Shown here piece by piece: positions 15,681-53,857 of a DNA stretch of 64,000 nt; positions within the stretch are counted from its first letter, which is position 1, and each line of letters opens with the position of its first letter. The translations under genes and the position numbers were made by a program. This DNA comes from Butyrivibrio proteoclasticus B316 (lineage in GTDB: Bacteria; Bacillota; Clostridia; Lachnospirales; Lachnospiraceae): assembly GCF_000145035.1 (NCBI RefSeq), contig NC_014387.1, positions 186,001 to 250,000 on the forward strand, written 5' to 3'. Below the pieces are notes generated by a model that ran no database searches, was not told where the DNA came from, and saw only the letters and a list, made by a program, of their open reading frames with translations.

Positions 15681-15708
15681 GGATTACGAGAACGAAGTGA
15701 AGTAATCC
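15681..15708 (+). other. GAGAAYGA-loop hairpin before atpE
   Basis: GGATTAC (15681-15687) and GTAATCC (15702-15708) form a perfect stem around the loop GAGAACGAAGTGAA, in the 101-base gap between atpB and atpE. The loop is nearly the same as that of the hairpin before atpF and resembles three others in the window. Confidence 0.75.
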
Positions 15709-15776
15709 GATAGCACGCCTAAAATTTTAACTAAATACAAAAACTAATAAAAACTTCATTTAGGAGGCAAAGAATT

Positions 15777-16058
15777 ATGGGTGATTTTCAGATGCTAGCT
15801 AAAGGTATTGCACTTGCAGGATGTGGTATTGGTGCAGGATGTGCACTTATCGCAGGTATTGGTCCTGGTATTGGTGAAGGAACTGCGGTTTCTAAGGCAC
15901 TTGAAGCTATCGGACGTCAGCCTGAGTGTAAGGGCGACGTAACAGGTACTATGCTTCTTGGTTGTGCGGTTGCTGAGACAACTGGTATCTATGGTTTTGT
16001 TACAGGTCTTCTTCTTATCTTCGTTGCACCTGGTATGTTCATGAACTACCTGCAGTAA
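15777..16058 (+). CDS. atpE: ATP synthase subunit c, sodium-type with two carboxylates
   Basis: The rotor proteolipid, 93 residues in two helices. Helix 1 ends GPGIGEGTA with E34 at the place where sodium-driven enzymes usually carry Gln. Helix 2 has V65, the essential E67 and T68 in [10 protein letters not shown]. Gln/Glu, Val, Glu and Ser/Thr make up the known sodium site. The Glu-Glu version has been described in Fusobacterium nucleatum. Sodium coupling is therefore likely. TAGGAGGC lies before the ATG. The gene stands between two intergenic stretches rich in RNA hairpins, perhaps to allow the high level of c subunit needed for a ring of about ten to eleven copies. Confidence 0.95.
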
Positions 16059-16071
16059 TAATGGATTCAAG

Positions 16072-16109
16072 GTATCAAATACGCATGCTTGCATGCAAGG
16101 ATTTGATAC
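16072..16109 (+). other. Hairpin directly after atpE
   Basis: GTATCAAAT (16072-16080) pairs with ATTTGATAC (16101-16109), with an inner GCATGC/GCATGC pair. It starts 14 bases after the atpE stop. No U-tract follows, so an mRNA-stabilising or processing role is more likely than full termination. Confidence 0.65.
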
Positions 16110-16141
16110 TTTGAAGACTAAACGGACATGAGGAAAAAAGG

Positions 16142-16160
16142 CATTTTACAAAGTAAAATG
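16142..16160 (+). other. Short hairpin in the atpE-atpF gap
   Basis: CATTTTAC (16142-16149), three A, and GTAAAATG (16153-16160). It is the second of three stems in this 205-base gap. Confidence 0.55.
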
Positions 16161-51850: not shown

Positions 51851-52198
51851 TGTGAGACAGCGTAATAAAGAATTGTGTTTAGAGATACATGTATTAGCAA
51901 TAATGGTTTGGTTTGCAAGAATGACATGTATTGATTTCAAAATAACATAAATACAAGTTACAAGCAAATTGAATAATTTTGTATGCAATTTTTCTACGTT
52001 TTGTCTGCTTGTAATTTGGCTATCTATGACAGATAATTAGTATCGTCAACAAATGTATACAAGTGCAAAGTTGTATTTTTTCATTATTTCAGTTGGCAGA
52101 TCAGGTACAACGCACATGTGTATAGACCAAGCAGAACCAAGGGGTTCTTGGGAGATAAAGTTTTATTTATGCGCAATAGCGCGGGAAAGGGGATTTTT
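51851..52198. promoter_or_regulatory. Leader of the isomerase-like gene with short repeats
   Basis: A 348-base gap with no gene. ACATGTATT occurs at 51887 and 51924. TTACAAGC (51958-51965) and GCTTGTAA (52007-52014) are inverted to each other, and GTATACAAGTGC near 52052 resembles them. These could be regulator sites for the following gene. A clear promoter was not identified. Confidence 0.4.
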
Positions 52199-53677
52199 AT
52201 GATTAACATTCCAGAAGTTAAAATTGGACTTGTTGCAGTAAGCCGTGACTGCTTCCCAGCATCACTTGCTGTCAACAGAAGAAAAGCATTAGTAGAGGCT
52301 TATAAGAAGAATTTCAACGACAAGGACGTTTATGAGTGCCCTGTTTGTATCATTGAGAGCGAGACTCAGACACTTGAGGCTCTTGAAGATGTTAAGAAGG
52401 CAGGATGTAACGCACTTTGCGTATACCTTGGAAACTTCGGACCAGAAATTTCTGAGACACTTCTTGCTGAGAAATTTGATGGACCTGTAATGTTCTGCGC
52501 AGCTGCAGAGGAGTCACAGGGTGACCTTATCGATGGCAGAGGAGATGCTTACTGCGGAATGCTCAATGCAAGCTACAACCTTCACCTTCGTGGAGTTAAG
52601 GCTTACATTCCTGAGTATCCAGTTGGAACAGCTGATGAGTGTGCTAAGATGATCAACGAGTTCGTACCTATCGCAAGAGCTCTTGATGGACTTGCTAACC
52701 TCAAGGTTATTTCATTCGGACCTCGTCCAATGAACTTCCTTGCTTGTAACGCTCCTATTCAGCAGATCTACAACATGGGTGCTGAGATTGAAGAGAACTC
52801 AGAGCTTGACCTCTTCGAGTCATTCAACAAGCATGCAGGAGATCCTAGAATTGCAGAAGTTAAGGCAGACATGGAGAAAGACCTCGGCGCTGGTAACAAG
52901 AAGCCTGAAATCCTTGAGAAGCTTGCTCAGTATGAGCTTACACTTCTTGACTGGATCGAAGAGCACAGAGGCGGCAAGAAGTACGTTTGTATCGCTGGTA
53001 AGTGCTGGCCTGCATTCCAGACACAGTTCGGATTCGTTCCTTGCTATGTTAACTCAAGACTTACAGGCAGAGGAATTCCTGTATCTTGCGAAGTAGATAT
53101 TTACGGTGCAATCAGTGAGTTCATCGGAACATGCATTTCTGATGATGCTGTTACACTTCTTGATATCAACAACTCTGTACCTGCTGATATGTACGAGCAG
53201 TCAATCAAGGGCAAGTTCGACTACAAGCACACAGATACATTCATGGGCTTCCACTGCGGAAATACATGCACAAGCAAGCTTTCAAGCTGCGAGATGAAGT
53301 TCCAGAGAATTATGGCTAGAAACCTTCCTGAGGAAGTTACACAGGGAACACTTGAAGGAGATATCGTTCCTGGAGATATCACATTCTACAGACTTCAGAG
53401 CACATCTGACAATCATCTTAAGGCTTATGTTGCACAGGGTGAAGTTCTTCCTGTTGCTACACAGTCATTCGGTGGTATCGGTGTATTCGCTATTCCGGAG
53501 ATGGGAAGATTCTACAGACACATTCTCATCCAGCACAACTTCCCTCACCACGGAGCAGTTGCGTTTGGTCACTTCGGAAAGGCTCTCTTCGAAGTATTCA
53601 AGTATGTTGGTGCTGAGGTTATTGGTTACAACCAGCCTGCATCACTTCCATACCCTACAGAGAACCCATTCGCGTAA
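52199..53677 (+). CDS. L-fucose/L-arabinose isomerase family protein
   Basis: A 492-residue protein of the FucI/AraA-type isomerase superfamily. Marks include the N-terminal VKIGLVAVSRDCFPAS, the ESQGDLIDGRGDAYCGML stretch, the C-terminal metal-binding TFMGFHCGNTC and QHNFPHHGAVAFGHFGKAL. The usual role is interconversion of an aldose with its ketose, but the substrate is unknown. In a xylan locus with a xylulokinase it might supply xylulose in place of XylA, or act on arabinose or a uronate derivative. The ATG at 52199 has AAAGGGGAT before it; upstream in-frame codons from 52118 do not. Codon use is strongly biased, so it is probably abundant. Confidence 0.8.
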   Translation: MINIPEVKIGLVAVSRDCFPASLAVNRRKALVEAYKKNFNDKDVYECPVCIIESETQTLEALEDVKKAGCNALCVYLGNFGPEISETLLAEKFDGPVMFCAAAEESQGDLIDGRGDAYCGMLNASYNLHLRGVKAYIPEYPVGTADECAKMINEFVPIARALDGLANLKVISFGPRPMNFLACNAPIQQIYNMGAEIEENSELDLFESFNKHAGDPRIAEVKADMEKDLGAGNKKPEILEKLAQYELTLLDWIEEHRGGKKYVCIAGKCWPAFQTQFGFVPCYVNSRLTGRGIPVSCEVDIYGAISEFIGTCISDDAVTLLDINNSVPADMYEQSIKGKFDYKHTDTFMGFHCGNTCTSKLSSCEMKFQRIMARNLPEEVTQGTLEGDIVPGDITFYRLQSTSDNHLKAYVAQGEVLPVATQSFGGIGVFAIPEMGRFYRHILIQHNFPHHGAVAFGHFGKALFEVFKYVGAEVIGYNQPASLPYPTENPFA

Positions 53678-53714
53678 AGCGCCTGAAGAGTTCTTTTAAA
53701 GTTTAATTATTTTA

Positions 53715-53750
53715 GGGGATACGAGTTTTCTCGTATCCCCTTTATATTTT
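53715..53750 (+). terminator. Intrinsic terminator
   Basis: GGGGATACGAG (53715-53725), TTTT, CTCGTATCCCC (53730-53740), then TTTATATTTT. A perfect 11-base stem. Confidence 0.9.
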
Positions 53751-53804
53751 GTGCAGATGTGTGATATGATTTAGCACAGTAAACTAATGACGTGATTAAA
53801 AAAG

Positions 53805-53857
53805 TATGATAGGAGTTGCGAGAATGACCTCAATCATTGAGCAGTCCATATATCATA
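53805..53857 (+). promoter_or_regulatory. Hairpin element before the 2-hydroxyacid dehydrogenase gene
   Basis: TATGAT (53805-53810) pairs with ATCATA (53852-53857), and GGA-TTGC with GCA-TCC inside. The loop begins GAGAATGA and contains a further small stem. It is the most divergent member of the GAGAAYGA family, 21 bases before the start codon. Confidence 0.5.

Follow-up and report, generated by a model that had tools for sequence, protein, structure and literature searches.

What is a hairpin with much the same loop doing shortly before five separate genes of one bacterial genome? The question was raised by a 64,000-nucleotide stretch of Butyrivibrio proteoclasticus B316 (contig NC_014387.1, positions 186,001 to 250,000 of the forward strand; hereafter the window, with coordinates counted from its first letter), for which a preliminary description had proposed a dispersed element with the loop GAGAAYGA. 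We found all five hairpins at the positions given there, and they belong with Clostridiales-1 RNA (Rfam RF01699), a family that behaves as a miniature inverted-repeat transposable element (MITE). The reading that we favour, with confidence a little above even, is that this is a modular, non-autonomous MITE-type element whose sense transcript folds up, closed by a stem, out of the way, so that an insertion between genes of one transcript can be tolerated or put to use.

Identity of the five hairpins

The predicted fold of the full-length copy is a four-way junction, in which the stem P1 closes three arms: H1, which is long, H2 in the middle, and H3. The five copies in the window are listed here.

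15672..15716, plus strand: short copy between atpB and atpE; P1 GTGATAT (15672-15678)/ATAGCAC (15710-15716) with one mismatch; H3 15681-15708
16050..16220, plus strand: full-length Clostridiales-1 RNA between atpE and atpF; in the predicted fold, P1 16050-16059/16211-16220, H1 16063-16118, H2 16123-16178, H3 16180-16209
30601..30649, plus strand: short copy before xylB; P1 TGATGTA/TATATCA and H3; xylB start at 30700, 50 nt away; upstream stop codon 66 nt before the copy
38874..38927, plus strand: short copy in the leader of a GH67 gene; P1 ATGATAT/ATATCAT and H3; GH67 start at 38964
53805..53857, plus strand: short copy in the leader of a D-2-hydroxyacid dehydrogenase gene; P1 TATGAT/ATCATA and H3; gene start at 53870

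The full-length copy, alone among the five, matches the whole RF01699 model above its gathering score (16053-16217; 88.5 bits against 48, E 2.5e-18). The xylB copy reaches 29.9 bits over 30469-30649 (E 0.013), below the gathering score, and the other three short copies gave no match with the full model. All four short copies consist of P1 and H3 without H1 and H2, and from the arm that they have in common they appear to be shortened derivatives of RF01699. The hairpin at 16180 is therefore real but does not stand alone, being the third arm of an RNA of about 170 nt. An outer stem had been described for the xylB and GH67 copies; it is present in both, but P1 is found in all five copies rather than in those two alone, and in the xylB copy the outermost base of TTGAT/ATCAT is unpaired.

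The atp copies sit directly on the ends of the genes before them (atpB, atpE and atpF match PF00119, PF00137 and PF00430): the atpB stop codon (TGA, 15673-15675) lies within P1 of the short copy, and the atpE stop codon (TAA, 16056-16058) within P1 of the full-length one. The other three stand in leaders, with 12 to 50 nt between copy and start codon, and are not flush with a stop codon; the upstream neighbour of the GH67 copy is a divergent AraC-type gene, and a terminator-like hairpin, identified by eye, lies upstream of the dehydrogenase copy. From the end of P1 to the next ATG there are 60, 43, 50, 36 and 12 nt (the last to the first ATG, 53870), in rough agreement with the 20 to 70 bases first estimated.

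As a word, the shared loop is not significant. The sequence GCGAGAAYGAAG with up to 2 mismatches gave 12 matches in the window where 8.2 were expected, a number reached by 13 of 100 shuffles, and across the whole genome (4.40 Mb) CGAGAAYGAAG was not enriched, with 8 matches against 14 for the pattern read backwards. As a structure, the hairpin is significant. A covariance model built from 12 copies of the same genome outside the window (R2; its short calibration makes the E-values rough) recovered all five window sites, at E 2.3e-13, 3.8e-7, 4.7e-7, 1.1e-6 and 7.6e-4, and after these came a match to the 15681 copy on its opposite strand (0.0034), followed by one at E 2.2. Among the 12 sequences, 93.9% of the cells were paired versus 76.5% when shuffled, 26 cells were double-changed versus 7.3, 9 of the 12 pairs had changed on both sides and none of 500 shuffles attained the covariation score observed, while the count of pair types did not exceed that of the shuffles (109/500). 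A 17-copy set that includes the window copies agreed on the covariation. A conserved RNA element rather than a chance likeness, as had been proposed, is what these data support: the copies covary, run in the sense direction and lie shortly before gene starts. Absent covariation, or matches unrelated to gene starts, had been named as outcomes that would speak against it, and our tests, run without R-scape, found neither.

The same genome contains 14 RF01699 matches. An H3 model (R1), built from 17 copies of which five come from the window, finds 33 matches there with E no higher than 1; for 24 of these E is below 1e-3. Five of the 24 strong copies fall within 38 kb (window 15672-53857), where about 0.2 would be expected under an even spread, for a model built partly from these five. 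The purine-rich internal loops of H2 and H3 are conserved, which suggests a bound protein.

Rfam files RF01699 as 'Gene; sRNA', and Table 1 of Weinberg 2010 answers 'probably' to whether Clostridiales-1 is an RNA and 'probably not' to whether it is cis-regulatory (PMC2864571). We found no report of its mobility, operon placement or overlap with stop codons, the supplement to that paper lying outside the search; the mobility of the family, its sense placement in operons and the position of P1 on the end of the upstream gene are new here.

Mobility of the RF01699 family

To follow the element beyond the window we drew copies from score-sorted lists of matches. Of 150 sampled Lachnospiraceae genomes, 84 had an RF01699 match, 67 of them over the cut-off, and in a class-wide sample of 243 genomes nine had one: eight in the window's order and one outside it that was weak and below the cut-off. 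Several genomes carry many near-identical copies of one length each, and both sequence and length differ between genomes, the length being mostly 154 nt in G077, 159 in G142, 178 in G049 and 168-169 in G068. In four other Lachnospiraceae genera, target duplications of at least 6 bp, mostly 7-8 bp, flanked 13/17, 9/11, 7/10 and 7/14 copies (36 of the 52 in all), versus 7, 12, 3 and 1% in controls that combined flanks taken from two different copies. The insertion sites are AT-rich.

The duplicated unit spans GAT...GGGTCAAAAG to CTTTTGACCC...ATC, with inverted-repeat ends, and extends 15-35 nt beyond the Rfam model, which thus stops short of the 3′-end of the mobile element. In G077 this end pattern occurs at 194 sites versus 1 for the pattern read backwards, the most of five genomes scanned. 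Elements in the family range from 69 to 201 bp and are modular: in G077, where internal deletions have given shorter forms, one of 69 bp with the same ends carries only H1 and showed a duplication in 3/4 cases, and a duplication was also seen for a 128-bp form with the same ends, H1, H3 and a fourth hairpin. Within the genus of the window, copies with full ends and duplications are present at L075, L077, L078 and L228. Neither a target duplication nor an outer 3′ repeat was seen for the window copies.

Two leads towards a mobile partner yielded no candidate. For an IS256-type partner, PF00872 is present in 4/8 genomes and absent from G077, the genome with the most end sites. Paired inverted ends spanning 1.18 kb in G077 turned out to be two elements flanking a GntR-like gene (by its translation), not an insertion sequence. 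At L025 and L074 there are head-to-tail or permuted copies in which the H3 end is followed directly by the start of another element, and at G000:C1:2264587-2264814 (L008, L033) H3 and its 3′ flank are tandemly duplicated downstream of a full copy, by a MATE-family gene.

Other folded, MITE-like repeats have been described in operons (PMC3446304, PMC3049150, PMC10969869). Like the present element, bcr1 and other Bacillus cereus repeats are MITE-like, interspersed and often found in mRNA or at operon junctions, though in another host and, in the available part of that report, with no description of a P1 made of host stop codons (PMC3446304). BOX, RUP and SPRITE of pneumococcus, ERIC, BIME and Correia are small folded repeats as well. 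Several are regarded as MITEs, and such repeats can occur within operons and influence the mRNA; the accessible text does not describe a near-exclusive sense orientation flush with stop codons for them (PMC3049150). The Chunjie element of Geobacter is likewise a MITE of variable length, from an unrelated host and, as far as the available portion of its description goes, not claimed to fold out as RNA. The B. cereus repeats, bcr1 included, differ from the Clostridiales-1 element in sequence and target.

Operon junctions and the closing stem

We compared the placement of copies with and without the outer 3′ repeat, using our own codon-usage gene calls; divergent, convergent and edge cases are not counted in the sense/antisense ratios. 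The repeat was scored by a simple word match, which missed repeats visible by eye at L053, L246, L247 and L268. In most of the sampled genus copies the outer 3′-end is missing, and these copies are placed within operons in the sense direction: the 67 copies in the genus with no 3′ repeat seen comprised 47 sense, 3 antisense, 7 divergent, 4 convergent and 6 edge cases (p 4e-11, with related species not independent of one another). In contrast, the 60 copies with the repeat comprised 22 sense, 16 antisense, 12 divergent, 7 convergent and 3 edge cases (p 0.42). The two classes differ in their sense/antisense ratio (Fisher 6e-5), in a contrast that omits 29 copies outside the genus with no 3′ repeat seen (17 family and 12 burst copies). 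A second set was gathered from named genomes, mostly of Butyrivibrio or other Lachnospiraceae, with a 26-letter H3 pattern, and all its counts refer to the matches listed; three of its 80 sites are among the 78 genus copies and seven occur in one or other of the loci sampled before. Here sense copies numbered 65 and antisense copies 1; of the rest, 4 were convergent, 2 divergent and 8 at the edge of a contig. For 52 full-length sense copies of this set the median spacer to the next start was about 40 nt. The strand given by the model folds more stably in 64/67 distinct genus copies without the 3′ repeat and in 35/36 mobile copies with it, a test that is not fully blind because the Rfam model sets the strand of each copy.

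The closing stem often takes in the last codons and the stop codon of the upstream gene. In the genus set P1 starts within -12..+8 of the stop codon in 40/47 sense copies versus 8/22 with the 3′ repeat, and in the named set within -18..+1 of the gene end in 48 of the 55 sense copies whose P1 could be read. P1 encloses the whole stop codon in 22/40 cases of the genus set and 29/55 of the named set. There are 57 distinct P1 sequences among 64 in the named set, where a perfect stem of at least 8 bp was present in 55/80 copies versus 9% when 3′ arms were swapped between copies, and one of at least 10 bp in 30/80 versus 2%, the longest reaching 14 bp. In the genus set 96.6% of P1 cells are paired versus 54% when shuffled.

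We searched 48 genomes for groES–groEL and fetched 30 loci, of which 28 junctions were readable; the element occupies seven of the 30, in three sequence lineages. Where the final groES codons of G044, G036 and G208 differ by a synonymous change, the 3′ arm mirrors it, by eye, the arms reading AATAATA/TATTATT versus AATTATAA/TTATAATT and AATTATA/TATAATT. The junction is empty in G016 and G035, whose GroES proteins are 99-100% identical to that of G033. In the groES–groEL gap of G024 (L294) there is a remnant with H1 only, probably left by a deletion between short direct repeats that can be seen in its relative G044.

Among 26 AtpE loci searched with the H3 model, atpB–atpE is occupied in three and atpE–atpF in three, with one more degenerate atpB–atpE copy found by eye, and rplL–rpoB is occupied in 4/30 genomes. 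The named junctions here follow our own reading of Pfam families, which covered 32/47 upstream and 28/47 downstream genes in the genus set and 62/65 sense sites in the named set. Besides groES–groEL and atpE–atpF, occupied junctions include etfB–etfA, thiolase–crotonase, infB–rbfA and speE–saccharopine dehydrogenase, and five run from a substrate-binding protein to an ABC transporter. From Pfam tallies without locus assignment we infer that pheS–pheT, thyA–folA, pgk–tpi and others are also occupied pairs. No pathway theme emerged among the downstream genes covered (28/47 and 62/65), and for that reason a dedicated leader regulon is unsupported.

A different repeat, like gccttctccctggggagaaggtggcacgaagtgccggatgagggg, stands at the same junctions in members of the genus where the Clostridiales-1 element was not found, in the atpB–atpE gap at L100, L101, L102 and L105 and in the groES–groEL gap at L292, L293, L302, L310 and L314. 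Operon junctions may be landing sites common to different repeats.

Readings of the junction copies

The favoured reading, of an insertion that folds itself away, would work as follows. The element would enter an AT-rich site and create a duplication of mostly 7-8 bp; its RNA would fold as P1 with H1, H2 and H3 in a four-way junction, or in the short form as P1 with H3 alone. Copies landing at gene ends in operons would survive. Their outer inverted repeat on the 3′ side would be lost, and P1 would then be kept, or remade by compensatory change, so as to close at the upstream stop codon or immediately ahead of it. The fold would remove the inserted RNA from the path and leave the short spacer to the next start, which would keep the downstream gene expressed and shield the junction from nucleases or early termination. 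That the element is transcribed, that it affects expression and that events ran in this order is what we infer. In favour of this reading, several of the junctions join partners taken as needed in equal amounts. More tentatively, and as a possibility that we rate clearly below even, the element may protect itself at the RNA level by building its stem together with the neighbour's last codons and stop, such that the operon is read nearly as if the element were absent, a counterpart of an intron without splicing. If this is true, synonymous codon choice in host genes is coupled to the element.

A number of observations weigh against the favoured reading. No transposase partner was found among the end sites listed, where PF00872 was the one family searched, and a comparison of atpB–atpE, atpE–atpF, rplL–rpoB and groES–groEL within the genus revealed, for settled copies, no unambiguous empty site that would expose a duplication. 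At settled copies the duplication is not visible because the flanks are too diverged, though presence and absence differ between species. The mobile copies are not uniformly unoriented, with sense:antisense counts of 8:0 in G049, 6:1 in G142, 5:3 in G077 and 3:6 in G068. The stop codon lies outside P1, untouched, in 16/55 copies of the named set, and three of the five window copies are leader copies, which folding out of the way explains less well. A terminating ribosome must open P1, hence the fold can close only between ribosomes, and the conserved H2 and H3 loops suggest a bound protein that plain folding-out would not need. Part of the P1 covariation in the genus set comes from arms read in a shifted register. 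Finally, the seven core pairs of P1 in 67 copies hold 5 G-U wobbles, 1 A-C and 7 other mismatches (G-U/A-C 6/1 in 78 copies and 15/3 in all 156); with so few wobbles, selection on P1 at the RNA level is only weakly favoured. A ratio of 13 G-U to 1 A-C was discarded as biased, since the outer extension that yielded it could hold nothing but pairs.

The wobble counts also bear on whether P1 pairing needs any RNA function at all. Quasipalindrome correction is a DNA route to paired arms, and such a mutational effect would account for the perfect stems, as long as 14 bp, that the element forms with host coding sequence. We regard it as improbable, because it leaves unexplained the strong strand asymmetry of folding energy over the whole element (on a strand set by the Rfam model) and the near-exclusive sense orientation in tandem gaps. 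The sense orientation, 65:1 among the named-set matches, argues in the same way against an independent trans-acting small RNA, as do the many copies per genome, embedded in operons, and a P1 built from the neighbour's codons; despite the Rfam type and the 'probably not' cis-regulatory rating of Weinberg 2010, which point towards it (PMC2864571), we consider this the most improbable of the alternatives.

Regulatory roles deserve more weight, above all differential expression, in which the element would stabilise the 3′-end of the upstream mRNA or mark a processing site and give operon neighbours unequal output. Some of the occupied junctions do join genes whose output is commonly unequal (rplL–rpoB in 4/30 genomes, atpE–atpF and the five between substrate-binding protein and ABC transporter), and in the Bacillus subtilis cggR operon, according to the available part of one report, stoichiometry is influenced by a downstream structure mainly via stabilisation of a cleavage product (PMC11780869). 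A 3′ stabiliser needs no 5′ arm overlapping a stop codon, however, and in B. cereus a correlation with mRNA decay was seen for bcr3 alone and not for bcr1, in the accessible portion of that study (PMC3446304). The partners encoded at groES–groEL, etfB–etfA and pheS–pheT are, moreover, taken to be needed in equal amounts. As a general account we consider differential expression rather unlikely, with an unequal-expression role at some junctions plausible. The placement of the stop codon wholly inside P1 in about half of the copies (22/40 and 29/55) would also suit a ribosome sensor, in which P1 closes only under poor translation of the upstream gene, with a change in downstream expression to follow, and the conserved loops could bind a factor. 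But no terminator or alternative fold was identified, in data that were not searched systematically for them, the set of genes is broad for one signal, and for leader copies there is no ribosome upstream that could be sensed; we judge such a sensor a slim prospect, a shade above the DNA effect.

Should the favoured reading hold, an orphan Rfam 'small RNA' would be recast as a mobile element with a role in operons and the annotation of RF01699 hits would change. Breaking and restoring P1 would be a direct test of how a MITE is tolerated inside operons, and the data suggest that the stop-codon regions of host genes co-evolve with an inserted RNA.

Two further features were seen in the window. 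The sequence TTTAGCACAG is common to the leaders of the GH67 and dehydrogenase genes (38847-38856 and 53770-53779), 17 and 25 nt before the element, and is possibly a common promoter or operator. A palindrome, AACCACCGGCTAAGCCGGTGGTTCTGA, occurs three times in identical form (11039-11065, 49573-49599 and 57655-57681), each time starting a sub-threshold STnc490 match, and is a second dispersed repeat of the window, unrelated to the Clostridiales-1 element.

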